Shown here piece by piece: positions 6,651 to 42,869 of a stretch of 64,000 nt of DNA. Source of the DNA: Parelaphostrongylus tenuis (Eukaryota > Nematoda > Chromadorea > Rhabditida > Metastrongylidae); assembly GCA_019055375.1 (NCBI GenBank), contig JAHQIW010004567.1:310001-374000 (forward strand). Reading direction: 5' to 3'. Position numbers and translations under genes: made by a program. The stretch's first letter is position 1, and each line of letters starts with the position of its first letter. Below the pieces are notes generated by a model. It saw nothing but the letters and a program-made list of their open reading frames with translations, did not search any database and was not told the origin of the DNA.

Positions 6651-6689
6651 TAGATTTATGTCTAGACAGTGGAAGAGTGGTAGATGGAG

Positions 6690-9764: not shown

Positions 9765-10115
9765 AGTTAACCTTTTCTGGACGATGTATGTCTGCCGTGA
9801 CGGTATAAAGTATCCCTTTGTGGACGGTAGCATATTCGATATCGTTAGTGGCACGCGATTTTCGTTCTTCAACAAAGATTTTTCTTTGTTTCAGGATTTA
9901 CTTTAAGTTCTTTGCACCGCTCTGATAGAACGTGATTTTATCTACAAGTTTGTACATTTTTTGTGCATATATACTCTTATGAGCAAGGAAAACTGCGAGT
10001 GTGAAACGTAATTCTACTTTCGCTCTCACAGTGCCCTATGAGAAGCTTTTCGAGAACCAGTTCAAGCGTCAAATTCACCGAAATTCGGGCTGCCGAATGA
10101 GCCTAGTGTAGTCCA
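9765..10115. repeat. Dispersed repeat, copy 1 of 2
   Basis: This segment and 15655-15975 share an ordered set of weak matches: a GTTAACC-type start, a CGATTTTCGTT stretch, a GTGCATATATA stretch, then GGTGAAACG and TTCGGGCT. A shorter relative may lie at 14650-14800. No coding capacity is evident; it is probably an old non-autonomous element. Confidence 0.35.
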
Positions 10116-10186
10116 CTGAAAATCAATGCACAAACTTCAGCTGAGCAAAGATGGCTAACCGAGTGCGAAACATAATTTTATTTTTA

Positions 10187-10575
10187 GTTTTTTTTTCTGT
10201 TGAGCAGTTCCGAGGCGGTAATAAGAGCATTTATTGAATATCGGTAATGCAATACAACAATACAGTGTAGTAGTGCAGCATAAATAAAACAGTAATCGTA
10301 GTGGCTTTCTTACATTTCTGCTGAGGTTATGGAAGCTTTTTGACTGAATGATTTGCGGATTTATTTGACCCGTCCAGGCTCTGACGAAGGCGAGCCTCGC
10401 CGAAACTTTAGCTCACTACGATTATTGTACTATTTACGCTGCACTACTACACCTTAATGTTGTATTGCATTATTTCTATTCAATAAATACTATTTTTAAC
10501 ACCTTGAAACTGCTCAACAGAAAAAAAACTACTGATCTATTCCTACTATGCCGAGGTTAATCGAAAGCTGGTCTT
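10187..10575. mobile_element. PLE terminal repeats as an imperfect foldback
   Basis: Two roughly 110-bp arms (about 10187-10300 and 10420-10530) are imperfect inverted copies sharing TGTTGAGCAGTT, TTATTGAATA, ATGCAATACAACA and GTAGTAGTGCAGC, and they flank a plus-strand hammerhead-like core. The right side continues into ATGCCGAGGTTAATCGAAAG, the element end also seen at 14.55 and 33.8 kb. This is the second PLE terminal subfamily, the same as at 30.67 kb. Confidence 0.65.
10377..10414 (+). ncRNA. PLE hammerhead-like core, altered cleavage site
   Basis: GGCT, CTGACGA, A, a GGCGAG...CTCGCC helix II and GAAAC are intact. The cleavage triplet reads TTT rather than GTC and breaks the C-G pair of the short helix III, although AGC follows for helix I. 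Confidence 0.5.
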
Positions 10576-10760
10576 GGGAACTCTATTTTTGCTGCTACAG
10601 CGTACTACAGAGGTGTTTTTGAAAACCAGCAAATTGTGGGGATCCATGAGATCTAAGCTTTTCAATGGTTAATTTAATTTTGAACAAAAAGAGTTGTGCA
10701 GCGAAAAAGTAGCTCTGAAAATTTGAGAATCAGAATAACCCTCGCCGTCCGCGGAGGGTT

Positions 10761-11032
10761 AAAGCTCTCGGTGTTGATCAATCCCTGAGGGATGCGCCAC
10801 GCTTTCGATCTCATCAAGCATCGTCAAAAGTGATTGGAATGCATATCCGGCCTTTCAAAAGACTCGGATCCACTGAGTTATCAAGTCAGAGTACTGCTGT
10901 TCTCCCAGACACTCGCGTACCAGCTCGCCGACATCGAACAGCAGGAGGGTTTGGTGAGCGCAGGGCACGTGACCGAACCGTCGACCCTGCAAGCGTCGCA
11001 GTGCATCTCCAACCACTGCGCTACCCTTCTAC
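10761..11032 (-). repeat. tRNA-derived SINE, family B
   Basis: The minus strand begins with a tRNA-like head (A box GTGGCGCAGTGGTT-type, B box GGTTCGA-type) and runs through a conserved body to a tail reading, on the plus strand, AAAGCTCTCGG...ATCAATCCCTGAGGGATG. Six other copies lie in this window (14.9, 16.7, 23.0, 24.4, 50.8 and 60.3 kb). The open frames here, up to 133 codons, are artefacts of this repeat. Confidence 0.8.
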
Positions 11033-12379: not shown

Positions 12380-13100
12380 GGTAACATATAGATTCAATGA
12401 TATATGAAAATCGAGAAAACTTATCTTGATTAGCTGACGAGGGTAAAGTAGTCCTACTTGTAATTCGGCAGACGTTTCGGCGATCCGCCTTCTTCAGAGC
12501 TTGGGCGTATGTAATATCAGTCTATTCGAATGATTCGAATGGTCTTATTTATATGCTGCCTAGGTCAAGTTAGAAGATCAAACGAAGAAAGGGCGCGAGA
12601 TTACGTGTGATGTGACACAGTCGTCCTTCCGGTTCATTTCGGGGTTTCGGGCGTTTATCCAAAATGCCTCAAGAGTTTTGCGCGTGGATGTTCTTGATTT
12701 CTGCGCTAGGATTGTGACAGTCACATCAAAATCTTTGTTGTTGTGTTTTGTGCCCTATGTAAGCCTAAGGTTTGGTTTTATCTGTTTTAGATTCACTGTC
12801 TAGATGTTCTTTCATGCGGGTGAAAAGTGGTCTACCCATTCCGCCTATATATTCTTTCCTACATGTCTTACATGTTAGCAAATAAATTGTGCCCGATCTC
12901 ATACAATCCCCCTCTTTTCCGTCAGGGCAGATCATAGAGCTTTTGGTGTTGCACAATCGATCATAAAGTCTATTACGGATCAGCTGATGGCGTAGGGTGG
13001 GAGGTGGGATTTCAATAACTACCACGGAATTTTCAAGACCGCATCTTTTTAGGCACTTTTTAACCGCGCTGTTTCTAACAACGTTTAGCACCTAGTCTTG
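12380..13100 (-). mobile_element. Penelope-like element, 5'-truncated copy
   Basis: The minus-strand frame 13091-12765 encodes the PLE C-terminal region: an RHQLIRNRLYDRLC block, a Cys cluster (CPDGKEGDCMRSG, CKTC) and the GIY-YIG-type endonuclease block KEYIGGMGRPLFTRMKEHLD. Downstream is a 3' tail with a hammerhead-like core at 12467-12501 and the shared terminal sequence to about 12400. It is joined head-to-head with the plus-strand copy that starts at about 13101. Confidence 0.85.
12467..12501 (-). ncRNA. PLE hammerhead-like core
   Basis: On the minus strand: AGCT, CTGAAGA, A, GGCG-GAT-CGCC, GAAAC, GTC, TGCC. Core and helix II are intact, but the innermost helix I pair is lost (T opposite T) and another is weak, so activity is doubtful. 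Confidence 0.55.
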
Positions 13101-14196
13101 CCATCGCTTTTATGTATAAGATGGAAGCTCCAGTTCTCCTTCACCGCCCATTGCTCTACTGCCGGTATATAGACGATTGCTTCATTGTCTGTTCCACACA
13201 AGAGGAAGTGGACAAATGTTCTGAAGTCTTGAACGGACAGTCAGAGCATATAAAATTTACGCGAGAAAGTCCAAACGGGAGCTGGCTTCCATTCTTGAAC
13301 ATCCAAATGAATTTTTTGAATAGTGGCTATAGCACAAAATGGTATCGAAAACCAAGTAGCAAAAACATTTTGGTCAATCACCTCTCTCATCCTTCACACA
13401 TGAAAAATCTCTAATTGAAAACATGTTTCGAACGGCTAAAAATGTGTGCACAGGCGAAGAGGAAAGGAACGAATTATTGAACTTGGCACGAAAAATTGCC
13501 ATTTCCAACGGCTACAAAACATTTGCCACTCGCGAATATCCATAAAGTGTAATTAGGTCCCAAAAAAATCACGCTCCACACCTGAATAGAATTCTCTTCA
13601 GACTGCCATTCATATCAATGAAATTAGCAGCGCGGTTAAAAAGTGCCTAAAAAGATGCGGCCTTGAAAATTCCGTGGTACTTATTGCTATCCCACCTCTC
13701 AGCCTACGCCACCAGCTGATCCTTAATGGACTTTACGATCGATTGTGCAGCGCCAAAAACTGTACAATCTGCCTTAATGGAAAGGAGGGGCATTGTATGA
13801 GATCGGGCACAATTTGTTTGGTAACATGTAAGACATGCGGAGAGGAATATCTAGGCAAAACGGATAGACCATTTTTCATTCGCATAAAAGAACATCTAGA
13901 CAGTAAATCTAAAATAGATAAAACCAAACCTTTAGGTTTACATAGGGCACAAAAACACAACAACAACGATTCTGATGTGATTGTCACAATCCCAGCGCAG
14001 GAATCACAACATCCACGCGAAAAACTCTTGAGGCATTTTGGGTAAACGCTAAAAACCCCGAAATGAGCCGGAACGACGAATGCGTTACCATCGCGCGGGA
14101 TCTCGCGCCCTTTCCTCGTTTGATCTTTTAACCTGATCTAGGCAGCATATGAATAATATCCTCCGCATCCAAATAGTCTAATACTATTTACGCCCA

Positions 14197-14231
14197 AGCT
14201 CTGAAGAAGGCGGGTCACCGAAACGTCAGCC
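14197..14231 (+). ncRNA. PLE hammerhead-like core, near-intact
   Basis: AGCT, CTGAAGA, A, GGCG-GGT-CACC, GAAAC, GTC, AGCC. Compared with the 4746 copy, helix II has one C-A mismatch and helix I one A-C mismatch. It lies directly downstream of a PLE endonuclease frame, which ties the ribozyme family to PLEs. Confidence 0.6.
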
Positions 14232-14236
14232 AAATT

Positions 14237-14473
14237 CACCTGTATCACTTGTCGTCCCGTTGATCGTCGAGTGACTTGAGCGGGTACCAGCAACACCTCC
14301 ATTTTTCCCTATCGCGTGCAAGAGTAGCCCAGTGGGTCCTCCTCGCTCTAGGGATTCGCTGAGCATCATATCTTTCTTCTATCGCTTTCGTGAAAAATTC
14401 GGACCAACGGGTCGGTGGTCTTCCTGTAGAGCGCTGATGCAAAAATGCCAAAAACGGTAAGAAATAGTTGCCT
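14237..14473 (-). mobile_element. RTE 3' fragment nested in the PLE tail
   Basis: The minus-strand frame 14451-14245 carries GRPPTRWSEFFTKAIEERYDA and RRTHWATLARDREKW, the extreme C terminus of an RTE protein, followed by its 3' end. The PLE sequence CAGCC(A/G)AATT occurs on both sides (14227-14236 and 14474-14483), reading as a 10-bp target-site duplication. The RTE insertion therefore postdates the PLE. Confidence 0.8.
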
Positions 14474-14649
14474 CAGCCGAATTACTACGACTAATTTACC
14501 AACCTCGCATCAGCTAATCAAGATTTTTCTCGAATTTCATATACCGATTAATTATGCCGAGGTTTATAGAAAGCCGAACTTTTGAGTTGTTGCTATATGT
14601 ACCCCACAGATTTATGTCGATTTTATCTAAAAGCATTCAGATTATCACT

Positions 14650-14930: not shown

Positions 14931-14934
14931 CTAA

Positions 14935-15172
14935 GCGCATGTGGCGCAGTGGCTTGAGCTGCTCTGCATCACACACAAGATCGATGGTTCGACCTCGTGC
15001 CCAGGCCTCACTAAGCCATCCATCCCTCCGCTGTCGGTAAAGTGGTATCGGGGACGACTGGTCGCAGACTTCTCTAGGAGGATAAGCAGCACTGACTCGG
15101 TTCAGCGTTAGGCCACCGCGAGTCATTGTAGAGGCCGGACATGCATACAATCATTTCAAACGAAGTTTAACA
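14935..15172 (+). repeat. tRNA-derived SINE, family B
   Basis: Starts GCGCATGTGGCGCAGTGG (A box), then a B box GATGGTTCGACCTCG, then the family body (GGAGGATAAGCAGCACTGAC, GGCCACCGCGAGTCA) to CGAAGTTTAAC. It is the best-preserved plus-strand copy for defining the head. Confidence 0.8.
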
Positions 15173-15654
15173 GTGATATACCAAAAAAATTGCCAGTTTT
15201 TATGGACATGTGAAAATGCGTGATGCAAGTCGGTTGCTGTATTTTTATAAGTGTACTTTTATTAGTGTTGACATAAGCGGCTAAAACTACTTCTAAATAA
15301 CCCTCCATCACTTGTTGCGTGAATCCCATGACTTTCTCCATTCGCAGTAAATCGACAGATCAACAAATTCTTTATCTGACCGCTTTTTTAGAGGTAATAA
15401 TATGTTATAACTATATGTCAGTAATGTTGGGTGGTATGCAAAATTTTTAATCTCTGACGAGAGTTGAACTGGCGTTTCACCTTTTACTGGGCGTGTGCTA
15501 ACCACACTGCAATACTGGGACTTCTGCTTTGCTATCACTCCATCTGCGATATAAAGTATCGGTTCTGTCAGCATCAGCCGTCAAGCTCGCAAGAAGTTCA
15601 GTGTTGGTAGTTCTCCTTTCGAAAATGAACGTTTCCGCTATAATACCATCTTAG

Positions 15655-16702: not shown

Positions 16703-16977
16703 AAGCTCTTGGAATTTTTCATTTGCTGAAGGATGCGCCATACATTCGACTTCATCAAGAATCGTTAGAGGTGACTGAATGAATGCCTGGCCTTTGGAAT
16801 GACTCGCTATAACCTATCTGTGTACCAGGTCAGTGCTGCTATCCTCCCACACAACCCTGGTAGTTATTCATCGATCCCGGAGGGATGGAAGGCTCCGGTG
16901 AGCGTCAGCCTCAGGATCGAACCATTGACCTTCTGAGTGTCGCAAGGCACCTCTAACCATTGCATCACGCGCGTCCC
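16703..16977 (-). repeat. tRNA-derived SINE, family B
   Basis: Plus-strand reading gives the tail (GAAGGATGCGCCATACATTCGA), the body, then the reverse of the tRNA-like head (CTCTAACCATTGCATCACGCGCG) at 16950-16977. Slightly more diverged than the 24.4 kb copy. Confidence 0.78.
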
Positions 16978-19690: not shown

Positions 19691-19704
19691 CTGTTGAATT
19701 ATTG

Positions 19705-19928
19705 CAACAATTCAAAAGTTCGACTTTCTATAAACCTCGGCATAATCAATTGATATATGAAAATGGAGAAAACTTATCTTGATTAGCTGACGCGAGGTTG
19801 ATAAAACAGTTGTAGAAATTCGGCTGACGTTTTCGGCGACCCGCCTTCTTCAGAGCCTGGACGTATATAGTATTAGTCTATTTGAATGATCATTCAAAGT
19901 CGCCGAAACGTCAGCCGAATTTCTACAA
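19705..19928. mobile_element. PLE terminal insert, head-to-head, with target-site duplication
   Basis: A minus-strand PLE terminal unit is followed by a truncated plus-strand piece (GTCGCCGAAACGTCAGCC at 19899-19916). The two meet at the perfect 18-nt palindrome TTTGAATGATCATTCAAA (19881-19898). The insert is bounded by an exact 14-bp direct repeat CTGTTGAATTATTG at 19691-19704 and 19929-19942. No coding sequence. Confidence 0.75.
19822..19857 (-). ncRNA. PLE hammerhead-like core with one extra A
   Basis: On the minus strand: GGCT, CTGAAGA, A, GGCG-GGT-CGCC, GAAAAC, GTC, AGCC. It is identical to the 4746 copy except that GAAA has gained an A, which probably impairs cleavage. Confidence 0.6.
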
Positions 19929-19944
19929 CTGTTGAATTATTGTT

Positions 19945-21514: not shown

Positions 21515-22745
21515 ATTGTAGAATTAACATTGCATAATTCGACCGATTATCGATACACTTGAACCTGCCCCTGTTTCCAGATCAGATCGGAAGATCAAAT
21601 CGAGCAAAGGCGCCATGATTTTTATGATAGTGGCGCATTCACCCTTTCGGTTCGATGTCTATACGTCTCTCATCCGTTGTCAAATATGTAACTTACTTCA
21701 GTTACACACTATAAACGTGTGTGTTGGTTGCAAGTGCTTAAGCTTTTGACTTCCCACTGATTTGATCTCCGAATTCAATCCATCATAGCTTTTCGTGTTT
21801 ACTATCGGCTGTACATTGAATTGTTTATATGCTTATCGATGTACTACACGACAATTGTCTTTGTGGCGTCATCTGCTCATCAGGAAGCTGGTCCGTTGTG
21901 TCGAGTGCCATGTGCTTTTCCTACGGACAGTAGCTGGCTGGAACGTCAAGGTTGACCGGCTTCTCCTACTACGAACAGTAGATGGTTGGAACGAGCCTGA
22001 CTGGGTTTGATCTCTTAACAAGTTCTCATCTATAGCACATTGGTTGCGAGGCCTGGTTCTGCCCATCGGTCATATGGGCCACATCATGCTTTTCTCGCAT
22101 TCAATCTGATTCCTCGATTCCATATACTACGAGGGTCGTCGCATTTGTATGCAGATTTAGCTGATTCTTGGGGATTTTTCGTCGTTCTTGTGGATGTCAT
22201 TGATTACTGGTTGATTTTATTTATTTTGCTCTCCTACATTAGCAATGATAGGGGCGTTTCAGTGTTGGGCCGCAGAGTCGCAAGATTTCGCGGGTTAAGG
22301 AAAGGAGGCTATTTTGAAGCAAGTGTGATGCCGATTTCTGCATTTTTAGGGATGAAGGGGAAGAGGAGTTGATGGCCCAAGGTCAGTCGAAGGAGGGTCT
22401 TGCGCATAAGAACTGCATCTTTACAACTACGCTTTTGTCGACTCATAAATTGTCGCATCGGTTACAAAAAGAACATTCAATAACTTCACGAATCAGTACT
22501 TCGTATGATTTAGCGAGAATCGTTATATAACATAGCGATGATAAGATCCATTCAGAAATACTAAAGAGAGCTTGTTTATCGAAAGGTCATCATTTTCTGT
22601 TTCTCCTTTCCCTTGATTGAACTTCCTTTTTCTCATAGATTATTTGTCGACGTGATGGATGTTTCGCTAACTTCACTGCTTCAGCACCTTAGAAAAAGTT
22701 GTTTCCCTCTAGGTCGTAGTAAAACTTTCCGTCAATTATGTCTGG
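21515..22745. other. Unassigned DNA
   Basis: A 110-codon frame at 22040-22372 has no recognisable domain and no exon signals; no other gene evidence. Confidence 0.4.
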
Positions 22746-22749
22746 TAAT

Positions 22750-22930
22750 AAATCGGAAGTTCGACTCTCACTAAACCTCGGCGTGAAGAATCAAAGTTGC
22801 CTTAGAAACCATAGTTTTTTAAAGCTTGTACGAGGTTCGTATATCATCTTTGAAGACAATGACTGACGTTTCGGCAATGTCAACATCCTCAGAGCGTAGA
22901 CGTACGAAAACTTATCACGTCTACTCATAC
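22750..22930 (-). mobile_element. PLE terminal remnant
   Basis: Contains the reverse of the element end (TAAACCTCGGCGTGAAG near 22773) and a minus-strand hammerhead-like core at 22862-22896 with CTGAGGA, a distorted helix II, GCCGAAACGTC and AGTC. No coding sequence is attached. Confidence 0.5.
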
Positions 22931-23254: not shown

Positions 23255-24245
23255 TCTTTCATATCTAGTGAAAATCTAGTGCACAATCAAATTCGGAGGT
23301 CTGCCCATTGAAGAGAATTCGCGGTTTAACTCCTACCAAGGGAAGGTCACCGGTGTTCTGTCACACACTATGATTAGTCAAAGTGAATAATCACAGCATG
23401 TGAGAAATATACCGGTGATTTTCCCTACGTACCAACCTCACGCAAATTTCAGAAAGGCAATGTAAGATAATACTTATGTTTTAGTGGTTAAAAACCTTTT
23501 TTTTTCTGAAAAATATCTTTGAGTTATGTCAGTAGGCTGCAATTGTACATCATGAAGGACAATGAGGAGTCTTTCTTTCAAAAAGCGGCATTAATCTTTA
23601 CTCCTTGTTACTGAACGTCAAAATCGTTGCAATTTATTGCACAATGATACCGCACATTACTACGATTTTCACAGCGATTGAATGATACTAGCAACTTCAA
23701 TTGCACTTCACAAATTCCCAACGTTTCTATCTTTATTTTAAAACAGACATACACGAAGAGTTTTCTGGAAGCAAGCCTCCAGTTACAATGAATTTTCCAA
23801 CTTATACCCACAAAAATGAATCTTGGAAATTGATATGTGTTCTCTTCTCCTGCAAAATGTACTCATAATTCCAGTGTTATTCTCCAATCCAATATTTATC
23901 CAATTATCTGTCATTGAATCATTCTAAGTAGGATATCATACTTTCTGTGGTGTCATGTTTCAATGTGACGACTCTTTTTATGTTCTTGAGTGAAAATATG
24001 TTTTTTTTTTTCGACGTTTTTCATTCTATATATTTTACAAAAGTAATGGGCCATTCGGCTGAGTTATCGTTCTATTTTACTTTCTTGTATTCTTCGGTGT
24101 TTTAATCACAGTTTTCCCATAAATTTGTGAATCGATTTTTTTTCACTGCAAATTGTAGCCACTGCAGATTTTCAATAACTTATAGTTTTTTCTTAGACTA
24201 ACGAACTACTAAAAGATTTGGTATGCCTGACGTTTGACTTTGTCT
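23255..24245. other. Unassigned DNA
   Basis: AT-rich with poly-T runs; no recognisable gene. Confidence 0.4.
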
Positions 24246-24254
24246 GCTTCAGGA

Positions 24255-24257
24255 CCA

Positions 24258-24288
<31 letters not shown>

Positions 24289-24330
24289 ATATATACATAT
24301 ATATATATATATATGTATTGCAAGTATTGT
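24255..24330. repeat. TA-rich microsatellite
   Basis: Alternating TA/TATG dinucleotide tract. With 24335-24385 and 24700-24850 it makes a long variable TATA/CATA-rich zone split by a SINE. Tyr/Ile-rich frames here are artefacts. Confidence 0.85.
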
Positions 24331-24401
24331 AAATATAGAAATGTGTACGCATAAATATACACGTGTATATGCATGCATACATGCATAAAAGGATAAAGGA
24401 T

Positions 24402-24691
24402 AAAGCTCTCGGCGTTAATCAATCCCTGAAGGATGCGCCATGCATTCGACTTCAATTTTTAACTTCGTTTGAGGTGATTGAATGCATATCTGGCCTTTAC
24501 AGTGACTCGCGGTGGCCTCCCGCTGAACCAAGTCAGTGCTGCTTATCCTCCCAGACAAGTCTGAGACCTGCCTGGTACCAAATTAGCAACCTCGGAGGGA
24601 TGGGTGGCTTGGTGAGCCATAAGCGCGAGATCGAACCATTGACCTCGTGTGCGACGCAGAGCACCTCTAACCACTGCGCCACATGCGCTCT
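24402..24691 (-). repeat. tRNA-derived SINE, family B, well preserved
   Basis: A full-length copy inserted in the microsatellite zone. It has the tail at AAAGCTCTCGGCG, the body (CTGCTTATCCTCCCAGACAA), and a reversed tRNA-like head ending CTCTAACCACTGCGCCACATGC. Its clean match to the 10.8, 14.9 and 16.7 kb copies fixes the family boundaries. The long frames crossing it are not genes. Confidence 0.85.
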
Positions 24692-24859
24692 CATACATAC
24701 ATGTATATATATATCGTGTATGCATCTGCGTATAAATGTAATGTACGCGAACGTATACACACACGTATATACACTTGCAAATGTACATGTGCATTCGTAT
24801 ATATACTTATGTATAAACACATATTTTTGTAAATACACGTCTATTTCATATCTCTTTTA

Positions 24860-25425
24860 TCCTTTTTTTATTTATTTAGGAAACCTTTTGCTCTGACGCA
24901 GTGGGTTAGTATACTTGTGTTTTATTCAAAAAATTTGCAAATTTTTCTAGCCTTCAATCAAATTAGTGATAGCCCACATTAAATATATCTATTGAAGGAC
25001 ATATTGTCCCGTTTCTAAGACACAGATTGATGAGTTAGCATTACGTCTCTTTGTCTATAGGTCGCTGTGTCCAGATGTTCGTAATTTCTCAATATCGGTT
25101 CCCATATTCCCGGCTGATGTTGTAGTTTGAGATAGCGACCCATCTGCCGTTTATCCTTCTTATGCAGTTAAGAATATTGTTGAATTGTGCCCAATTGAAT
25201 TTTTTCCGTTTCACATATAGAAATTTGATCCCTCTTCACATAACGTTGCGACTGAGCTGTTTTCAAACCGAGAGATAACTCATAACTTTGCATTGACGAC
25301 AACTTCAGTTCATTTCGATAAATAAATAAATAAATGTATATGCATATGTATATGTATAGATATGTGTGCCCATATATGTATAAATATATATACATATATA
25401 CACATATATATATATGCATATACCC
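24860..25425. other. Unassigned DNA ending in a TA-rich microsatellite
   Basis: 24860-25315 holds no recognisable gene; 25320-25425 is an ATAAATAA / TATATGCATATG simple-sequence tract. Confidence 0.5.
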
Positions 25426-25546
25426 TTGAGGGTTTTTTCAAGAATTCTGGAGCGTTGAAATTGAACACTGCGATCACATAAGTTAATCATTTACATCAGC
25501 ACAGCTGAAACTAATTTCAAAAAAGGATATTCGAAGCCTAAGCGAC

Positions 25547-25594
25547 GGCCATATACTGGTGTTTCGAAGGTCTCGCCATCCTCGTCAGTGACCC
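25547..25594 (-). ncRNA. Family-2 hammerhead core, decayed
   Basis: Minus strand: GGGTCA, CTGACGA, GGATGG-loop-CCTTC, GAAA, CACCAGTA, then TGGCC. The core boxes are intact, but helix II has a mismatch and the helix III palindrome is broken. Confidence 0.55.
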
Positions 25595-25813
25595 AAGCCC
25601 CGTATTAAGCCCTGCATTGTAGCAAGGAGGGAGGCGTACGTTGTGACGGCACAGTGTGCAATGACACGGGTCCATCACCACTTCTCTTTCGAAGGATCTC
25701 TGCTGGTAGAACGAATTTGATTCATATCATCAATGTTTTTAGAATCTCACAGTAAACATTCAAAATAATACCAAAAAAGAATGTCTGAAGCCTAAACGAG
25801 GTTGGTACGCCAG

Positions 25814-25860
25814 GGCCATACACCGGTGTTTCGGAGGTCTCGCCCTCCTCGTCAGTGACC
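25814..25860 (-). ncRNA. Family-2 hammerhead ribozyme, intact
   Basis: Minus strand: GGTCA (helix I), CTGACGA (core), GGAGG-GCGAGA-CCTCC (perfect 5-bp helix II, flush with the core), GAAA, CACCGGTG (palindromic helix III), TA (cleavage dinucleotide), TGGCC (helix I, pairing with GGTCA including one G-U). All invariant hammerhead positions are met. Helix III can form either a short CCGG-capped stem in one molecule or a 10-bp duplex between two molecules. I recognise no named family for it. Confidence 0.78.
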
Positions 25861-26283
25861 TGACTGAGAAGTGGTGATGGTCCAATGTCATTATACGCTG
25901 TGCTGTCACCACATACGCCTCTCTACTTGCTACAATGCATGGCTAATATGGGGCGTGGGTCGACCTGACTGAGAAGTGGTGATGGTCCAATGTCATTATA
26001 CACTGTGCTGTCACCACATACGCCTCTCTACTTGCTACAATGCATGGCTTAATACGGGGCGTGGGTCGACCTGACTGAGAAGTGGTGATGGTCCAATGTC
26101 ATTATACACTGTGCTGTCACCACATACGCCTCTCTACTTGCTACAATGCACGGCTTAATACGGGGCGTGGGTCGACCTGACTGAGAAGTGGTGATGGTCC
26201 AATGTCATTATACACTGTGCTGTCACCACATACGTCTCTCTACTTGCTACAATGCATGGCTTAATGTGGGGCTTGGGTCACTG
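25861..26283 (+). repeat. Four-copy 106-bp tandem array
   Basis: Units begin with TGACTGAGAAGTGGTGATGG at 25861, 25966, 26072 and 26178, a period of 105-106 bp, with only scattered substitutions and one 1-nt deletion. Each ends GGGGCGTGGGTC or a close variant; the last runs into the plus-strand hammerhead. The high identity implies recent expansion. Confidence 0.9.
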
Positions 26284-26322
26284 ACGAGGAGGGCGAGACC
26301 TCCGAAACACCGGTGTATGGTC
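26276..26322 (+). ncRNA. Family-2 hammerhead ribozyme, intact
   Basis: GGTCA, CTGACGA, GGAGG-GCGAGA-CCTCC, GAAA, CACCGGTG, TA, TGGTC. Core, helix II and helix III are identical to the minus-strand copy 25814-25860. Helix I keeps 5 pairs with wobbles. Expected cleavage is after the A at 26317. Confidence 0.76.
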
Positions 26323-26512
26323 GTGGCGTACGAACCTCGCTTAGGCTTCATACATTCTTTTTCGAAATTATTTTGAATGTTTATTGCGAGGTTTTGAAAA
26401 CAGTCGATGCCATGAAACTAATTATTCAAGTCCGCCTTTCGAGAAAGCTTCTTTTTTGGCTGGGAACATCTTAAGTGTTGCACTATTGCTTGATATCTTT
26501 CACTAATCATCT

Positions 26513-26605
26513 AGAGAATGGGTAGCTCAGTGGTAGTGATTCTATTCATTACGGAGGCAGTCGAACTTACTAGGGTGTAATTCAACCCTGCGCCGGTCCC
26601 ACGGA
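26513..26605 (+). repeat. tRNA-like sequence, probable SINE head
   Basis: GGGTAGCTCAGTGGTAG is a strong A-box match and GTAATTCAACCCTG a weak B box about 50 nt later. The acceptor and anticodon arms do not fold cleanly, so this is treated as a SINE or tRNA relic. Confidence 0.4.
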
Positions 26606-26609
26606 GCCT

Positions 26610-27440
26610 ATCATTTTCGAGTTGAGAAATTGACGATGTGGAGAAATCTGGAAAAATTTGGAGATCGAGTTGAGAGTTGTGTCATATGATGCACTTTATT
26701 TTTCTGTTTTTCTGACTGATTTCGATGGAGGCGACCTCGAACTTCTTCTTAAGTTTTTGCTCATTTGGCTGTAGTTCGGCATGCAACCTAATATATGCAC
26801 AAGTACCCTGTTACTATAATTCTTCAGAATAATCAGTGATGAACGGAAGATATAACTTAACATGAAAAAGTTTATCCTTTAACTCAACCTTAGAACTTAG
26901 AATAAGAATGGTTGTAGTCTACTTTAACCTATGACATCCACTAGGTGAACGGCTAGTCTTTCGAGATCCTTTATCTAAGAAATTATTGTGTTAGTGCAAA
27001 TATCATTATGTTGAAGTTGTCTGCCGTGGGCGACTTGAGGATGAAGTTAACATTTTTTGGCGTTATATCTAATGAATCGGTGGCTGAAGCATCTCTGTGG
27101 TATAAAGTTAGACTTTTGTCTGACCTACAAAAGCATTATCTAGAAAAATCTTCTTTTACTCATGATTAAACAATATCTAGTTATTTCTTCTCTATTTTCA
27201 CTCTGTACTGTCCTTTTTTTCTGCAATATTGGATATAGCACACCCAATATTAGAGTGGAAACTAGTTGGTAATCAAATGCGAAGCTTCGCTGGTGGTCTA
27301 AATTACGATTTTGTTGTAATATACGATATACGATAGATTCGTTTAGTACCGATAATTTATCTGATGTTTTCTGTTGAGGTGTGCAATAAATTAGAGCGCG
27401 TCTTATGTGACCTTCATTGTATTTCACACCTTTCGTCTAT
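26610..27440. other. Unassigned DNA upstream of the DIPK1-like gene
   Basis: No coding exon recognised. TTTTCCAG at about 27440-27447 just upstream of the first ATG is a good acceptor and may be a trans-splice (SL) site for the downstream gene. Confidence 0.35.
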
Positions 27441-27479
27441 TTTCCAGCTGTTAATTATGAGAGCTTGTTTGAAGTGAAT

Positions 27480-30400
27480 ATGAACGATTTCAGCCCTGGA
27501 GACTGGTTTGACGACGAAGTTCGTGCACTCGTGTGTTCAAAGCCGGGACGTTTGCTTATCACACTCCTTCTCATGATATTCGTTTATCTCGCCTTTATTG
27601 GTCAGTTTGTCTCTTTAATCCTTACTGTAGATTTAGTGAGACATCGAGTAAAGGCAAGTTTTCTAACGTAAACTAAAGCGTTATCATCTTTTGTATGGTA
27701 TTTCATGTTCTCATCATTCCAAAATATCTGTTTTATATGGGAAGTCGAATATGATCTGAACTCACGTCAGAACCTAGCCCAGTTTAACTGTAGCTGAAGT
27801 TAACGGTTAGTAGCAGCGATAGAAGCAAAATGTGGCCGAAAGAAAGTGAATGCTAAGGCCTGGGTTTGTCTAGTGGGCAACACGTGTGCACTCCAACGAA
27901 AAGGACAATTGTGAGTTGCTCACCCGGGGTTCCGAGTTTTGCTCATGTTTCAACATATGGTTGGTTGTAATTCAAGTCACATCGTATCATGAAAAATATA
28001 TGGACAGTAAGTAAAAAATTAAACTTTGTATCATGAAAACAAGTATACCACATAGAAAAGCGTTTGGAAAGTTTATTCAGTACAACAAAAAGCGACTTTG
28101 TTCTAGCCATACCAATTTATACAATTTTCCTTTTTATATTTTTTGCAGTCGATTTCTCGTGTTTCTTATCGGGTGATACATCATCGTAGCGCTCAGTTGT
28201 TACTAAGTATCAGAGTTGAGAGTTAAAGCACAAAAATTGTCACGATTTCTTACATGTTTCACATAATTATCATCGCTTTCCCGTAGGCGGCGTCTAAGCA
28301 ACTTGAGAGGTGATCTCTGTGCTCAGCAGTTTCAAATGAAATCCATTCTGTTGACGAGTAGGTTAGTCAGCGAGGAACTGCTTCCAAATTTCTTGATTAG
28401 TGCGTGATATTAGGTGTGATGTAGGATGTCTACTCTTAAAAACTGATTTTGTCTCTTTTTTGAAAAAGTGACGTTTCATACTCTTTGCGGTGGTAAATGT
28501 GCAGAATACGATTTTTATTTTTATGTCCAGCTGTTATCATTCTTGAAATGCTATTTACAGGGTCAATAGGCGTTTTTCTGTTTGTTTTCCGTTTCATTCA
28601 ATAATATAGGCTCAACTCTTTTCTTATAGTTTTTTCGTCAAATCGTGCCGTAACAGTCTTAGGCGTTGACGGCCCGGAACCATCGACAAAGGTGAATAAA
28701 ACAAGGTAGTTTTTGCTTGTCTCAAATGCAACCGTGCTCTTAGAAACGTTGCTCTTATCCAAAAAGTAGAATAATTGAATGCAGAGCAATCGATATTCTT
28801 ACGGAGTTGTGCGACTCATTTCGTGATGGTCTAATATCAGGAGATTCATGCAATCGGCTGTGTTACAACCGAGAGTGGAAAATCAGCGACTATTACGAGG
28901 GAAACAAGGTGCACTTGTAATTGCGATCGACATCATTTTGATCTCTTTACATGAGATGGTTTAGGTAGTACTGATATTGAAGGATGGAGGGCAAACTGCT
29001 GTATTTAAGAGTTTATATCCTTCTATGAATGATTTTTCACCACTCGATGAAAATCTCAGCTATGATGAGTTCTCAGACATGGTAATGTAAAGTCAGGAAT
29101 TTCGTTTCTCAGTCCTTCGTCATGATTTAATAGTATATTAATCTGTTTGTCACTAAAAAAATATTGAAATTTTTGTTTTTCCAGATTCTGAATCTGATTA
29201 ACGATGAGTTGCGATTGGGTTGGCCACATTACTACAAGAAACACCTCATGGATATCTTATGGCCAACATTACGAAGGCAAGCTTTTCCAAATTCTCAGCA
29301 TCGAAATTAGCTCATCTTCTCAACTTCAGTCTATTGTATGTTTATTCATGATCGGCTTTCGATCTAAAAACCACTAGAATAGTCAAGTTTCCGTTAAAGC
29401 GATTCTAAATTTGAAAAAGAAAATATTCCAATTTTTGGAGTTCGTAAAACATTTTTTCCACATGTATTTCGAAAATTGAGACTACTTGGTACCTCGAAAA
29501 GTAGACATATTAACACCAATTGCCTCAATACTGCAAATTTTCACGTTCTTATGTTCTCGAGTATCGTAATAATCGAAATATTATTGACAATTGCTGAGAA
29601 TTCACCATCGCCAGGAGTTGACATACGTTGAAAAATAAACCTAACGAAATGTTCAAATATTGACTGACTACGTTATAACAGGACTCCTGGGGAACCGATG
29701 TCCGGAGCTGATCGAGCATCTTTGTGGGCCTTGTTGCAACAGCCAGAATTTATCTTATTTCGGATTCTTCCTCTCACGAGAGTCACACCAAAGGTGCTCA
29801 TATTTATTCCAAATCTGAGAACCTATTTTTCTATTTGGTCATGTAAAATGATCAAAGTTTTCACAGCTCATTTTCGATTAAATAGATTACACTGAAATCA
29901 GTTTTAGTCTCTGAAAAGATTTTGGTTTTCTAATCTTTCAAATAATTAATTATGTGTTTAGCAATCCGAATTCATTCTTAGGAGTATCAATGTTTTTCGA
30001 TGAATTAGAAATCCATCTGCTGACACTTTTCAAAGAATGTTTGCGGACGGTCTTATTCATGGGCCCCAACTTGTTAGTCATACAGTAATGCCGCTTGTGA
30101 TAGAGTACAGCGTCCAATTAGGCGACCTGTAGATGACGACTGATCATTAAAAGACGATCAGCAGACCGTATTACCTTCAACTGCGAATTGCTACATATTG
30201 AGAAACTAGTCGAAGATATTATGCGGCAAATCGTTAACTAGCTATCTTCGAAAGTATGATTAAGATTTATTGCCGTGGAAGCTACTTAGATTCATTATAA
30301 GTAGAAGAAGGTAGGAAACCATGGAGGCTTGAAGAAATGGTTGACGTAGCGGGATTTTGTGTTACAGAAACTGCCACTTTTAACGAATTACCCTGCATTA

Positions 30401-33400
30401 TTTACAATTCTATTGCATATTTTTATACACATTTTAGGTCATCTTTACTATGAACAAAGATAATACTACTTTCTAAAATTTATCAAAACTTTTTACAATT
30501 TGCTAACTTCTTGCATACACAGATTATCGGCACATGTGGTCATTTCTACTCAACAGAGGCTCTCGTCGCTTTTCGAATGAAAGATTATTACATGAATCTT
30601 AAGGTTGGAGGTTTTGAGCCCTCAATCGACTATGAGTATAGTAAAATCCTTTTGAGTATTTTCTTCTGTTAAGCCGTTCCGAGGTGTTATTGATATTATT
30701 TATTGAACACTAGCGAAGCATACTACAATACAGCTAATAATGCACTGTGAATATACCATATCGAGGTGGCTAACGTTTCGGCGGTCGCCTTCTTCAGAGC
30801 TTGGAAAGATCATATCATTTTATCAAGCCAAAACCTCCATAATTCTAGCAGAAAACGTTAGAAATAAATTTGGGATTGCATAGGAATAATTTTATTTCAA
30901 AACTCTCACCGTTTTTATGTTTGGGTCTATCAGTTATTCATTAGACCAGCCGCTTAGGGTCAGTGCATCAGTGGGCTGTGCCTTACTCAGGCCGGAAAGA
31001 TCAGCCTGAGGTATGGTTCGAGGTCACGCGTGATTACGAGGCACTCCTCTTTTCGGTTAATTTTGGGCCTTTGTATGTATCCAAAAGGCTTCTGGGGTTT
31101 TACGCGCAGATGTTTTTGATTTCTGTGCGAGGATCGTGAATTTGACTTCGAACATTACTCCTGCATGTTTTTGGTCCCTATGCGTGCCTAGTGGAGTTTT
31201 TGGATCGGAGTCGCGTAACCCCACTAGTTGCTCTTTTACGTGGAGGAATAGTGGTCTACGCGTTTCGCCAATGTACTCATCCCGCATGCCTCGCAAGAGA
31301 TTAGGTAAATTATACCCGATCTGATACAGTCGTCGTCTCTGCCGTTTGGGCAAATTTGCAGTCGTTGGTTTCGCAGAGGCGGTCATATCGGTTGCGGTTT
31401 AATTGGGCTTTAGTGTCTTTGAGAGTAATTCAACTATTGCTACCGTATTCTACAAACCTGCTCTTTTTAGGCAGCGTTTAATATCTGTGCTTATTTCATT
31501 AAAAGTAAAAGGCAGAAAGAGAGGAACCCTTATTTCGCCAGACTTGTCGTTTGGGAGCATAGAATTTCCACTAAATCTAACCTGAAAAGCTCCTACCGTA
31601 TTGTTGTGAATCATTAGGACTGGCTATTTTTCGCGCCAAGCTCAAAGATTCTACCTTTTTTTTTGTGCACACATTTGTCGCTGTTCGGAACATGTTCTTC
31701 AGAAGCGCGCGTTTTATGTGTGAAGGATGAGGTGATAGGTAATGAACCACGATGTTCTTGTTGCTTAGTTTTCGGTACCATTTTTTTATTGTAAGATTCA
31801 CAATTGGGACCAATTTGCTTCTGGTTTCTCGCGGGCGTATTTTGTGTACTCTGATTGACTGTCAAGCAACTCAGACCTTTTGTCCATCTCCTCTTGGGTT
31901 GAGCAGCCGAATAAGCAGTCATCTATATACCTACTGCAGAGTAACGGCCGGAGATCGATTATTGGGATTTCCACTTTAGACATAAAGGCTATAGCAAGTG
32001 CTGGCGCTAGTCGTTGTCCCATTGCCAGCCCTCTGATTTGGGCAAAATAGTTCCCGGAGCATCTAAAGATTGAACAGTTCAGGCACTCTTTCAAGAGAGC
32101 CATAACCTGCCGGATGGAGAAGCCATACATGTTTATAGTCCTTTCGTGCTCCGCTAGAAGCTCGTATATGGCCTGCATTGCGGACCCATTCGATACGTTT
32201 GAATAAAGGGCGGTTACGTCGAAAGATTCCATTCCGTACGCTTTGTTGGGGGAGGCGCTAAGTAAATGTTCTAGGAACATTTGGGTGTTGGTGAGATGGG
32301 CTGGAATATGTTTTAGTAATTAGACTAGTATTAGGTTTAGGAACCACGTTATCCTAGTTTTGTAGTCCCTAGAGTGGGTTTTGAAGTTCTTGCAAATTAT
32401 ATGCGATACTGCACATGGTTTTCTTAGAAATGGGTTGCGCTGGTGAGAAACCTGGGCCCATTTCCAAGAGTGAGATTTGATTTCCCTGAGAAAATTTAAT
32501 ATCGTTAATATGCTAGATCAATCAAGGATCATCGTCCTAGGAGGCATGACTCTTCCCGATAATGCACGTTCACTCTTGAAGATGGGCGCAAGTTTTTCAC
32601 CAGCGCAACACATTTCTAAGGAAACCCTGTGCATTATCTCATGCAATTTGCAAGAGCTTCAAGACCGACCCCGCCATAAGGCCAGACTAGAATCATCCAT
32701 CACGCACGAACAACAAAACGTAGGGGCAATATTAACACCACCTTTTCCTCGAGCATTATTTAGGCAGCAAGACCCCAATAACAAGGTGGATATCAATTTT
32801 CGCATATTTTCAAACGAAACTCTCAGAATCGTTAACCACTACCTCGGGAAAATGTTTAGTCCTAACCTAAAAACAATCAGACTATCAGTTAGCGACAAGG
32901 GAGGAGAGTTTGTAGTAATTCCCAATCAGTTAGATATTGCGATAACGGAAAACCATCTTGAAGATACCACACTTTATCGCCCATCAACTGCTAAGTAATT
33001 CCAAAAACAGTATCGAAAATTGAACCAAGAATGGGTAAAAATAGCAAGTTCGGCTTGTTCAAAGCCTTCCGTTATCTCTCAACTAAAACTTAGTACGCCA
33101 TCATGTACCGTCTTATACTTATTCAAACTCATAGGTTGTTATGCACTGATGATCTTTTCTCTACTAATCCATCAAATTTCAAAGTTAGACCCATCATCAG
33201 CTGCGTAGGTGAGCCAACTGATGGGATAACGTGGTTCTTGAACCTAGTACTAGTCCAATTATTAAAACGCATCCCAGCCCATTTCAACAACACCCAAATG
33301 TTCTTAGATTTACGTAACACGTCTCCCAACAGCGCATACGTGATGGAATCTTTCGACGTAACCTCTCTTTATAAAAACGTGTCGAATGAGTGCGCAATGG

Positions 33401-35414
33401 AGGCCATATGCGAGCTTCTAACGGAGCACGAAAAAAATAGAACATATATGGCTTCTCCATTCGGCAGGTCATGGCTCTCTTAAAAGAGTGCCTGAACTGC
33501 TCATTCTTTAGATGGTCTGGGTATTATTTTGCGCAGATCAGTGGGCTGGCAATGAGGCAACGACTAGCTCCGACCCTTGCTATCGATTTTATATCTAAAG
33601 AAAAGGTCCCATTAATCGATCTCCGGTCGTTATCCTACTGTAGGTATATAGGTGACAGCTTTGTCGTCTGCTCAACCCAAAAGGAGGTGGACAAATGTTT
33701 TGAGCTGCTGAACAGTCAGTCAGAGTACATAAAGTTCACCCGTAAGAAACCGGAAGCAAACACCTTGGAACGGCTAAACAAAAGAAAATACTCATTTATT
33801 CAAACTATGCCGAGGTTTATAAGTAGTTAATCTTGGGATTCAAAATCCTTTTTTCTAGGGCAAAATCCTTGTGCATATCATGGGGACGCTTAAGCTTTTC
33901 CATGAGTTCATCAACGAGCCACTGCAATGGTGTGATGTTCGTTTCGATAATTTAGGCTTATCTGCTGATTATCCGAAACGGTACAGTGAATCCTGTGACT
34001 GCTACGATTTTGTCTCTTTTTTTTTCTCAATATCTGCCTAGTCTGCAGTGTTCATCAACTACGTGGCGGTAGATTCTTTGAGTTTAGGTTTTTTTCCTTC
34101 AGATTCGTTCTAATGGACGGTGATATGGTTTACACGGAGTCAAAACTGCGCGCCACACTTCATGAACGCCCTTGTGCAGGTGATTCAGATTGTACGATCG
34201 GGGATTGCGAAGCGAGGTGCACCTCTGACTTGACGTGTGGCGACAGGTCGAACACCAATCTGGAGGTATGAACTTATGAGTATTATAGAGTATCTCATCA
34301 TTTTACCCTTCTGATAGGGCTAATGCTTCTTTTTCACGACATTGTGACACCAATAGGTGTCAGTTTTTTCTGATCCTTTATTTTGACACACCATAGTCTT
34401 TGGTTTTTGTAATCAGTCGACAGCAAGCTGTGAAGGTACTATGGCTTGTGTCGTAGATTTAAAGATTTCTTTTTTCTAATTCCCCACATTATTGTTTACA
34501 AGTGTCCCTTGCTGTAGGCGAGATCATTTGATAGCGATGTATATTGGAATGGTCGAGTGGCAAATTGTTGAGTGGACAACTTTTCCTGGGCCAATGAGGG
34601 TTTTATATATACATTTGTAATCTATCGATTGATCACAAGAAGCCCAGGAAAAATTTTGGTGCATCTGTATTGAAGAAAATAGAAAAATCATACGCTATCG
34701 GTCGCTACACGCTAATATCACCACCTTCGCCGTGTCGATGTCTATGGCAAGCTCTCTTCCAAAGAGCAATGAATTGTGTATAAATCATGATTCACTTTCA
34801 ATAAACCATTTATTCTGCGCTGTTTGGAGAAATGTTGACGTTCCTCTAGTCCTATATATGCTTCATAAGCTTCCATACACGCTCACATGCCTTTAGTGAA
34901 AGAATAAAATTTTTTTCACAAAGGAAGAAGCTTCGCAGCTGTTCACTGAATGCTCTGTGATGTTATGCAAAAATTTTTTACGGGTATGATAAAAAACTTT
35001 TAACCTTTTTTTGGAAGGTTTTTACTGGTGCACGGAATGTTTTGTATTTTTACGATCAATCTATAGCTTATTAGTTTACGAATCAGAGTTCCGATCGATA
35101 ATAAGCATTCTAGAAGATAGTACATCAAATTTTGTGATCGGAAAATGCATAGTTTTGATAGACTAGTCGTTGTCTAAGTGTTATAAAAATCTCATGGAAA
35201 AAATATGAATTTCTGATATTCCTTTTGATAAATTGGCTTTTGTGAAATCACACCTTTTGAGGTATTCTGTGAAAAGTTGGTTCGAAAGCTGTTTGGTCAT
35301 ACCAAGTCGACGGTCAATAAATACCTGGCGGCGTGTCAGGAGTCTACTGGAAATATCACTAAGCGAATGAACGAGCTACGACTTACATGGTCGTGGAACT
35401 TGCCGAATGTGTAA
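27480..35414 (+). CDS. Divergent protein kinase domain 1 (DIPK1/FAM69) homologue
   Basis: A multi-exon gene for a type II membrane protein of the ER-resident DIPK1/FAM69 secretory-pathway kinase-like family. Exons: 27480-27600 (possibly to 27647), about 28744-28908, 28965-29081, 29185-29276, 29682-29793, 30523-30603, 33859-33980, 34103-34265 and 35262-35414 (TAA); phases agree from 28965 on. Exon 1 has a short N terminus and a membrane anchor (LLITLLLMIFVYLAFIG). Exon 2 has the family Cys motif (LISGDSCNRLC). Kinase-like landmarks are TAVFK (Lys), SLWALLQQPEF, IIGTCGHFY, WCDVRFDNLGL (catalytic-loop region) and FVLMDGD (DFG-like); a Cys-rich stretch (CAGDSDCTIGDCEARC) follows. The exon 1/2 junction is unresolved. 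The intron after 29276 starts with GC. The intron after 30603 holds two PLEs. The substrate is unknown. Confidence 0.87.
30654..32470 (-). mobile_element. Penelope-like element, internally deleted, inside a DIPK1 intron
   Basis: Minus-strand frames give the RT core (32280-31798: ESFDVTALYSNVSN, GLAMGQRLAPALAIAF, SRYIDDCLFGCS), then WYRKLSNKNIVVHYLSPH (31813-31577), then a GIY-YIG-type region (31386-31057: YIGETRRPLFLHVKEQL). Upstream of 32280 the N-terminal part is deleted relative to the plus copy. The 3' tail carries a hammerhead-like core (30768-30802) and the TTCTGTTAAGC terminus. With the plus copy it forms one insertion flanked by AAAATCCTTTT repeats at 30643-30653 and 33842-33852. Confidence 0.87.
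30768..30802 (-). ncRNA. PLE hammerhead-like core in the DIPK1 intron
   Basis: Minus strand: AGCT, CTGAAGA, A, GGCG-ACC-GCC, GAAAC, GTT, AGCC. Core, helix II and the palindromic ACGT helix III are kept, GTT is an allowed cleavage triplet, and helix I has one A-C mismatch. It is antisense to the host gene transcript. Confidence 0.6.
32471..33841 (+). mobile_element. Penelope-like element, head-to-head partner with mutated RT site
   Basis: Frame 32477-32998 encodes the PLE N-terminal region (LPDNARSLLKMGASFSPAQ, RLSVSDKGGEFVVIP). Frames 33103-33483 and 33471-33830 encode the RT (KVRPIISCVGEPTDGITWFL, ESFDVTSLYKNVSN, GLAMRQRLAPTLAIDF). The catalytic box reads CRYIGDSFVVCS: the first Asp of YIDD is Gly, so it is catalytically dead. 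The copy stops after TRKKPEA, loses the GIY-YIG domain, and jumps to the terminal ATGCCGAGGTTTATAAG at 33807. Confidence 0.87.
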
Positions 35415-37685
35415 CTTCTTCTGAACGGGTTCTAGATCTGCTCATATTTCTACATCGATAGTCGTTATATCTCTCTGATCATTTTTTACCGTCTTTGTTG
35501 TACCCAACTCAACTCATTGTGTTACTACGGGTGTTATGACTATCAAAAGCGTTTTGACCACTGACCGGCATAATGCTGTGTAAAGCTGTATAAATGTAAA
35601 TCGTTTGTTGACGGAAACACACCGATATTGAGATATTTTTCTCTAAAGTATTGAACAAATGATTTCCATCAATTTATCCTTCCTTCTGCATCGAAAGGAT
35701 AAAAGCAATTGAAGAGAAATACAAGTTTGTTATACCATAAAAGAAACTATCAGTTCACTCATCGTTTGTCGCCTGTTGTTACGAAGCATTGTCGTTCTCT
35801 TCATAAAAGTTTAGAAGTTATTTCAAGGTTAACTTTTGAAAACCGATGCGAGTGGATATCCACTCGTTTTTTGGAGCCGTTGGTTTTGGCTTATGAAGAT
35901 TTTGAGTTGCAGTTTTTGTAATTAAGTGATAGCAAATTAAAGCAGATCGTAGCGGTAATGTAGACTTTACAAATATATCTTGTGTAGTCGATAGTTCGTG
36001 AGAAAAGTTTTTAAGCGCGTTCATTCTACTGGCAAGGGTTTGCCGTTGGTGTGGCTCAGGAGGGAATAGGATCGTCTCGTCTTATTAGATGATAACGGAG
36101 TGTTTACATATATGAGAATATTACTTCTTAGTTGTTGTTTATCACTAATTCAAAATGTCTGGGTATTATAACGAGTTAAATTTGGACGTTCGAAAAACTT
36201 TGTCATTTCGAATGTTGAGCTTCCATTTTCGAATCTTACGTCCTCTAAGTCTTAAAGCCCTTTCTAACGGGAAGATCCCTCTCTGTTTCCCTTGAAGCAA
36301 TGAGTACTGTTATTGCATCAATTCAAGCTTATGTGGAATCTGTGAGAGCTGCCTACAATATCAGCGTTGTATTGGCCAAGAAATTCTATAGTACTACAGC
36401 AAATAGTTGCAAGGGTCTCGTAACAGAGATGAGGAGGACCAGACGTTTAGGATTGTCTATAAATTATTAGAGTACTGGGGATTCGAAAAACTGGGCAGAT
36501 GTTCATCGAGGGAATTTGACAAAATAGAAAGATTCTAACTACGAAGTCAATTATGATCAAAGCGAAATAATCCATTATTTTCGTAGGTTAGGATATTAAT
36601 AAAATGCATTAAGAATTGGAAAATGTTTTTATCGATAGGCCAATTCTATTTCTCAAGCACAAACCCAAATACGCTTTCATTCGGCAATACTCATGGGCTT
36701 TTTTGGCAACGATTTTTTTTTTTTTGAACATTTCGGCGATTACATGGACGCGTGTATTCTTGGATGACCGACCCAAACGACGAGCGAACGTATTCATAGC
36801 TTACCTCATCCATTTACATTCCTAGATATAAAAGGTTTTTGGGATAGCGGAATAAGTCTTGCGTACATCAAAATGCTCAAAGAAAATTACAATCATGGAA
36901 GTCAACCGTACTAGAAGGAAACATATGGAAATTGTCTGGGACGCGCACCACGATTGGATGAGAACCATTCAATCATTAAATAAATAGATAAATAATCTTG
37001 TAGTCAGTTAGAACTTGCCAGCAACCAGGCAGGTGCTCAAAACTCTCTCAGTAGATGCGTAGCCGCTAATGTTCTAAATTTTACCGGAGTAAAATATTCT
37101 TGATATTCTTGAAACATGTGCTCTTATTACAATGATTTATTTCAAATTCTGGAGATTAATTCTTTAATCCATGGCATCGACTGTTTTTCGTTCAGCGATT
37201 TCAAGTAGCCATAACTTCATGGGGACTTCTACCATTATTCAGGAAAAGCAGGACAAGTCGAGTATGGAGAAGCTATTCCCAAAGAATCCCTTTGCCCATT
37301 TGATTAGCAGCTTTGGAATGATGCGACCGAGGACTTTAAACTGGTTATCGAAGAATTCAAAATATTTGCTGAACTCGTTTCAGTCCCTCAGCTAAGAAGT
37401 TTTGACAACATCTCCATTACCACTAAGTAGATACTCGAAAAGAAAACAAATCTTAAGCTTGATTCTACGCAAAACACCTAGAGCGGCCAGTAATAGGTGC
37501 CATCTGTGGGAAATCCTCTCAAGTAGATTATAATCTGTATAAGCGGAAAAAGTTGATGAAAGCAGTTCAAAAACGATCGTGTGGAGAAGTGTCGTCTGCA
37601 TCTTAGCGAATATATGTTCCGCTATCTGCCCTGCTTAGCGAAAATAGCATATTGGTACATCGCCATGATATGCGATTTATGATTG
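35415..37685. other. Unassigned DNA
   Basis: No recognisable gene. The 3' end of the DIPK1-like transcript probably lies in the first few hundred bases, but no polyadenylation signal was assigned. Confidence 0.4.
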
Positions 37686-42865: not shown

Positions 42866-42869
42866 TCAC

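Follow-up and report, generated by a model that had tools for sequence, protein, structure and literature searches.

In the excerpted text of the published descriptions, Penelope-like elements (PLEs) possess inverted terminal repeats, target duplications of 8-10 bp (some copies have none) and an optional 31-bp tail on one arm (PMC3846280). Purified PLE protein cuts both strands of the target and extends them, starting internally at two neighbouring sites between which the tail lies, and hammerhead cleavage is not needed for PLE insertion in vitro (PMC11167929). PLEs are also described as no more than a strong candidate for mobilisation of animal retrozymes, an argument drawn from co-occurrence, shared hammerheads and a tandem habit (PMC7229834). 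Hammerheads that combine a weak or palindromic helix III with cleavage as dimers are known in amphibian retrozymes and have been proposed for PLEs (PMC7229834; PMC7761336).

We analysed a 64-kb stretch of DNA, hereafter the window, in which positions 25517-26412 hold a 0.9-kb non-coding mobile element with outward-facing inverted arms and 11-bp flanking repeats. Its features, with the evidence for each, were as follows.

25506-25516, no strand: left target-site duplication TGAAACTAATT (self-comparison and random-placement test)
25517-25546, minus: short tail 3' of the decayed hammerhead, the short end, mapping to the loop of the tail stem-loop (alignment; missed by a model built on PLE tails only)
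25547-25593, minus: decayed hammerhead module, core retained, helices II and III damaged (sequence reading and module comparison)
25552-25818, minus: 267-nt hammerhead-to-hammerhead monomer, the predicted processed or circular RNA (spacing of 267 in self-comparison)
25590-25686, minus: fifth 106-bp unit, inverted, 84-88% like the array units (self-comparison)
25696-25813, minus: tail of the inner left copy (alignment; missed by the PLE-only model)
25814-25860, minus: intact type I hammerhead, predicted cleavage between 25819 and 25818 (descriptor scan, folding)
25857-26279, plus: array of four 105-106-bp units, 95-99% alike, without a hammerhead (tandem-repeat search, descriptor scan)
26276-26322, plus: intact type I hammerhead, predicted cleavage between 26317 and 26318 (descriptor scan, folding)
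26323-26412, plus: full tail, the long end (alignment)
26335-26393, plus: tail stem-loop AACCTCG...CGAGGTT, common to PLE tails (alignment, covariance and sequence models)
26413-26423, no strand: right target-site duplication TGAAACTAATT (self-comparison and random-placement test)

Read on the minus strand, the left part runs hammerhead, tail, unit, hammerhead and short tail; read on the plus strand, the right part runs four units, hammerhead and long tail. The arms form inverted repeats of 127-148 nt that are 86-90% complementary in self-comparison. Their outer ends are not flush: on the right the element continues for 38 nt past the last base that matches the outer left arm. An 11-bp word was shared between such flanks in 9 of 2000 random placements, before any demand that it sit at the boundary. 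No open frame of at least 110 amino acids overlaps the element, which thus encodes neither a reverse transcriptase nor a GIY-YIG endonuclease and can at most be a non-autonomous member of the PLEs. Comparison of the element with plasmids and of its module pattern with viral contigs returned no match, and little was expected in either for an animal-like genome.

Set beside the GIY-YIG PLEs (the Penelope families of Adineta vaga, PMC3846280; Poseidon of Anolis, PMC11167929), the element has the same inverted terminal repeats, tail on one arm, hammerhead adjoining the tail and AT-rich target, and differs in its lack of a reading frame, its longer helix III and its internal 106-bp array. Target duplications in this window measure 11-14 bp, whereas those published for PLEs measure 8-10 bp, where present (PMC3846280). 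Animal non-LTR retrozymes share with it a non-coding sequence, type I hammerheads and a GC content below 50% (46% in the 267-nt monomer), and the monomer falls inside their range of about 170-400 nt; the 11-bp target duplication compares with more than 4 bp in these retrozymes and 4 bp in those of plants (PMC7229834). The element is mirrored, whereas animal retrozymes are described as simple tandems; it has one complete hammerhead-to-hammerhead monomer and an array without the ribozyme, whereas theirs carry a hammerhead in each tandem monomer of 150-450 bp; and its predicted 267-nt circle was no more stable than 100 shuffles (z -0.1), unlike their highly self-paired circles (PMC7229834). Smalpha and the W-element of Schistosoma, which we liken to the element by description, likewise carry a hammerhead in short interspersed or satellite-like repeats, and the mirror layout is absent from the excerpted description of them (PMC8490949). 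Among the matches listed in the open-licence literature, as represented by excerpts, no retrozyme-like element combined the tail of PLEs with their mirror geometry; the mirrored layout itself is already known for PLEs (PMC3846280). The locus adds two sharper links between retrozymes and PLEs, in that both the tail stem-loop and the geometry of insertion are shared, and it turns the mobilisation question into a direct test, namely initiation by PLE protein on the element's tail.

Both intact modules read GGTCA-CTGACGA-GGAGG-GCGAGA-CCTCC-GAA-ACACCGGTGT-A-TGG(T/C)C, with a 5-bp helix I, a 5-bp helix II, a ten-base, self-complementary and loop-free helix III and an A at the cleavage position; helix I is open, which makes them type I hammerheads. 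A descriptor (CTGANGA, helix II of at least 3 bp, GAA, an A..T-closed helix III of at least 2 bp, H17 not G, helix I of at least 3 bp) matched only these two modules on both strands of the 64-kb window, at a chance rate of 0.26 matches per window in 100 random first-order windows. When at least 4, 3 and 4 bp were demanded of helices II, III and I, the rate in 100 random windows fell to 0.01 per window; both modules have 5 bp per helix. The decayed module retains CTGACGA and GAAA; of its 47 sites, 5 differ from the right copy and 4 from the inner left one, mostly, as read from the sequence, within helices II and III. Between the two intact modules one of 47 sites differs, against 12 of 80 in the tails that follow them (Fisher p 0.03), so that the module is better kept than the tail, a mild sign, at the level of sequence conservation, of selection on the ribozyme. 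No Rfam hammerhead reached its gathering threshold anywhere in the window or E<=10 in 24000-28000; on 26240-26440, RF00008 scored 11.9 bits (E 9.8; gathering 48.5).

An earlier, sequence-only reading of this DNA had reported two intact modules and a third, an inner pair facing outward around four 106-bp units, and exact 11-bp direct repeats as boundaries, all of which we recovered at the positions tabulated above, with intact modules of this quality expected by chance at the rate of 0.01 per window. Its description of the hammerheads as fully canonical is right only in part: helix III is a loop-free palindrome, Rfam misses the motif, and folding favours a two-molecule form, most clearly for the left module. 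The inverted left unit, the inverted repeats formed by the arms, the 267-bp hammerhead spacing and the PLE-type tail were absent from that reading.

Folded as monomers, both intact modules prefer another structure, the hammerhead lying 2.5 (left) and 7.1 (right) kcal/mol above the minimum free energy (MFE). In the left module the homodimer MFE structure coincides exactly with the double hammerhead, whose helix III spans 10 bp; for the right module (26276-26322), helices II and III form in the homodimer and helix I is absent. The gain on dimerisation was matched by 4 of 200 shuffles for the left module and by 15 of 200 for the right. Among the five PLE-type hammerheads of the window, none had the helix III dimer as its homodimer MFE structure. 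Lunse in 2017 reportedly placed PLE hammerhead variants in the dimer-cleaving type with a weak or palindromic helix III. The element resembles the dimer-cleaving hammerheads of newt and axolotl in its self-complementary helix III (PMC7229834) and, in the left module only, in favouring a two-molecule double hammerhead. Its helix III is a ten-nucleotide loop-free palindrome; that of axolotl is shorter, a single base pair with a palindromic tetraloop (PMC7229834). The palindromic helix III, which had been counted as part of an unfamiliar layout, thus has published precedent in dimer-cleaving hammerheads with a weak or palindromic helix III (PMC7229834; PMC7761336).

The two left hammerheads lie 267 bp apart in self-comparison, and this is the only complete hammerhead-to-hammerhead spacing in the element. 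Given the order hammerhead, tail, unit, hammerhead in the left part, the complete monomer is 267 nt and not 106, and the 106-bp units look like monomers without ribozyme and tail. An RNA circle of 106 nt, predicted from the array in the earlier reading, is unlikely: the units have no hammerhead, neither descriptor match falling inside them, and the same-strand hammerheads are 267 nt apart; we rejected this candidate. The array units are 95-99% alike among themselves and only 84-88% like the inverted left unit, which suggests expansion or homogenisation of the array after the arms had diverged. The 106-bp unit had no match elsewhere in the window (best outside E 1.1).

Downstream of the hammerhead, the order AACCTCG, AT-rich loop and CGAGGTT is common to the element and the PLE-type copies, with ACACCTTG in place of AACCTCG in the family that we call PLE-B. 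A covariance model built on five PLE tails, with the element held out, found the right tail at 26329-26408 with 28.8 bits and a rough E of 7.9e-4. Matches that are neither PLE-type nor part of the element begin at 12.1 bits, and those above that score were the element's own antisense strand (13.3 bits) and otherwise PLE-type loci; one of these, 58038-58122, scored 27.8 bits, near the element, and owes its PLE label mainly to the same tail match and to a hammerhead remnant recognised by eye. The two left tails of the element (25725-25807 and 25479-25553) were missed by this PLE-only model at E<=10. A sequence-only profile gave the right tail 11.6 bits (E 0.02), a score reached anywhere in one of 200 random windows. 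In single comparisons, the score of the element tail was reached by 7 of 2000 shuffles against one tail of the second family, PLE-A, and by 45 of 2000 against another copy; against two PLE-B tails the counts were 147 and 915 of 2000. The tail stem is paired in 93.9% of 49 cells, compared with 20-53% when slid by 1-3 columns. There was no compensatory change among the 7 sequences and column shuffles reached every measure, so the stem shows conservation only. Sequence similarity shows the right tail to be homologous to those of the window's PLE-type copies.

PLE-type features, meaning a minimal hammerhead (whole or as a remnant), a tail, or both, mark at least ten further loci of the window: 4707-4858, 5870-6660, 10106-10600, 12394-14597, 19691-19942, 22700-22900, 30643-33852, 42790-43215, 49083-49396 and 57900-58122 (named below by their first position). 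They form a biased sample, since inverted repeats in self-comparison drew attention to some and the tail model to others. A mirrored arrangement, both arms pointing outward, is present in six of the ten: 12394, 30643 and 19691 by self-comparison, and 10106, 5870 and 42790 by direct comparison, where none of 500 single-base shuffles reached the score. The last three (42790-43215, 5870-6660 and 10106-10600) are old mirrored PLE-type insertions with hammerhead remnants, which self-comparison, the tail model and direct comparison together brought to light. A mirror partner was not found at 22700, 57900 or 49083, where 42, 10 and 400 of 500 shuffles, respectively, did as well, and 4707 is a single, solo terminal-repeat copy flanked by its own duplication. 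Flanking duplications measured 14 bp at 19691, 13 bp at 4707 and 11 bp at 30643/33842; the 12394 copy had none of at least 7 bp, and 10373-10579 had only an 8-bp word, its flanks having been chosen before the mirror partner was recognised. Two of the loci hold pieces that matched the reverse transcriptase domain RVT_1, at 31798-32319 (E 4.1e-7, above the curated cutoff) and 13079-13414 (E 1.7e-5, below it). Five other scanned protein pieces had no Pfam match at E<=0.001, no Pfam endonuclease domain appeared even at E<=5, and one endonuclease-like piece had no match in a protein search. The name PLE is our inference from the RVT_1 matches, the minimal hammerheads, the tails and a putative GIY-YIG motif. 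The PLE-type copies have hammerhead-like motifs at the equivalent place, and those read have ACGT as helix III where the element has the longer ACACCGGTGT.

Measured against the tail stem-loop, the left end of the element maps to the loop and the right end to a point 19 nt past the stem; for PLE-B (30643) the left end likewise falls in the loop, and the right one 24 nt past the stem. Among PLE-A copies, loop ends are seen in the solo copy 4707 and in the left arm of 12394. At 19691 the left end is 28 nt past the stem, but the right end does not reach the stem and coincides with neither tail site. The loop ends lie at columns 42 (element), 49 (PLE-B) and 55 (PLE-A) of the tail alignment, near one another and not identical. 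Between the element and PLE-B the end sites agree well; PLE-A fits only in part. The element thus has the outward inverted terminal repeats and target duplication of a Penelope-like insertion, and at its ends, one short and one long, the PLE tail is recognised on the right; the left tails were those missed by the PLE-only model. Outward-facing modules, a layout at first not recognised, have been published for PLE insertions (PMC3846280) and are present in the six mirrored loci above. As a lead only, noticed afterwards, 9 of the 11 positions of TGAAACTAATT at the right junction agree with the inner left tail; the start sites of PLE reverse transcription described in the excerpts of PMC11167929 are not homologous to the cut DNA.

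We consider the element probably to be a non-coding, non-autonomous, retrozyme-like Penelope-type insertion, placed by PLE enzymes that copied from both target strands. The shared tail and the same mirrored insertion geometry support the earlier proposal of a retrozyme-like composite that may borrow PLE enzymes. In such a scheme, a multimeric RNA would be cut by its hammerheads into a monomer of ~267 nt, probably as paired molecules held by the palindromic helix III. A PLE reverse transcriptase/endonuclease would bind the tail stem-loop and nick both strands of an AT-rich target, copying would begin inside the tail on each target strand, and the two cDNAs, each starting in the tail, would meet head to head and leave a mirror image. 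The 106-bp array may have arisen later, through expansion of the segment 5' of the hammerhead once ribozyme and tail had been lost from it. Here we infer both the hammerhead cleavage and which PLE acts. More tentatively, and with a little less than even confidence, we propose a retrozyme that uses PLE machinery, its copy of the PLE tail stem-loop serving as loading and start site for the reverse transcriptase and its insertion proceeding from both nicked strands; mirrored insertions, in PLEs as in retrozymes, would then directly record initiation on two strands.

That tail could also have come with the element from a PLE. A deletion derivative of one autonomous PLE family, in which the monomer is the pseudo-LTR of that family, the reading frame has been lost and there is no independent retrozyme lineage, is a possibility that we hold in some doubt. 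The order of hammerhead and tail and the tail stem are the same as in PLE-type copies, and a solo terminal-repeat copy stands in the window at 4707, as solo pLTRs have been published (PMC3846280), but such a derivative leaves the 106-bp unit unmatched elsewhere in the window (best outside E 1.1) and the helix III longer than the ACGT of its supposed parents. The mirror image, for its part, might derive from self-priming or template switching on antisense RNA, as proposed in 2013 from palindromes at inverted junctions (PMC3846280), instead of from two-strand copying. The right end of the 19691 copy, at neither tail site, would suit this proposal; alone, it does not explain why both outer ends of the element and of PLE-B lie in or just past the tail stem-loop, and extension of both strands has since been demonstrated in vitro for one PLE (PMC11167929), so that we think self-priming unlikely.

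Chance likeness to a hammerhead in an ordinary inverted satellite fragment, with no ribozyme function, fits the Rfam scores below threshold and the preference of the monomers for another fold, but we judge it very improbable in view of the 0.01 such motifs expected per window, the better preservation of the module than of the tail (1/47 against 12/80) and the hammerhead-like motifs at the equivalent place in the window's PLE-type copies. Hardly credible at all is a DNA transposon of foldback or MITE type whose terminal inverted repeats acquired hammerheads: it would yield 86-90% inverted arms and an 11-bp duplication, but the duplication varies in length among related loci (11, 13 and 14 bp), the sequence of the right end is a PLE-type tail, and the outer arms are not flush, the 38 nt by which the right end is longer being the ground on which we ruled this candidate out.

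Several other repeats were seen in the window. The end of the element's tail recurs exactly over 18 bp at 37170-37187 (minus), which we rejected as a further copy because there is no wider homology, and 52488-52721, where a hammerhead-tail profile gave weak matches (E 0.16 minus, 0.06 plus), was not counted as one; both weak matches there face outward, perhaps as an old mirrored copy. Directly right of the element, 26519-26600 is a tRNA-like stretch (GGTAGCTCAGTGGTAG...) that was not called as a tRNA by ARAGORN, nor by Rfam at gathering. A dispersed repeat family, its pairs 68-81% alike, occupies 10757-11024, 14934-15176, 16703-16963, 24403-24691, 50762-51034 and 60276-60451, and is probably a tRNA-derived SINE, given the tRNA-like promoter boxes seen by eye in the 24403-24691 copy. 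A 54-bp two-copy tandem repeat at 58111-58222 overlaps the end of the PLE-type tail at 58038-58122, the picture that duplication of that end would give. Inside a PLE-A tail, 14236-14473 is a repeat of ~237 bp, a related copy of which (82%), at 6690-6898, adjoins another PLE-type tail.
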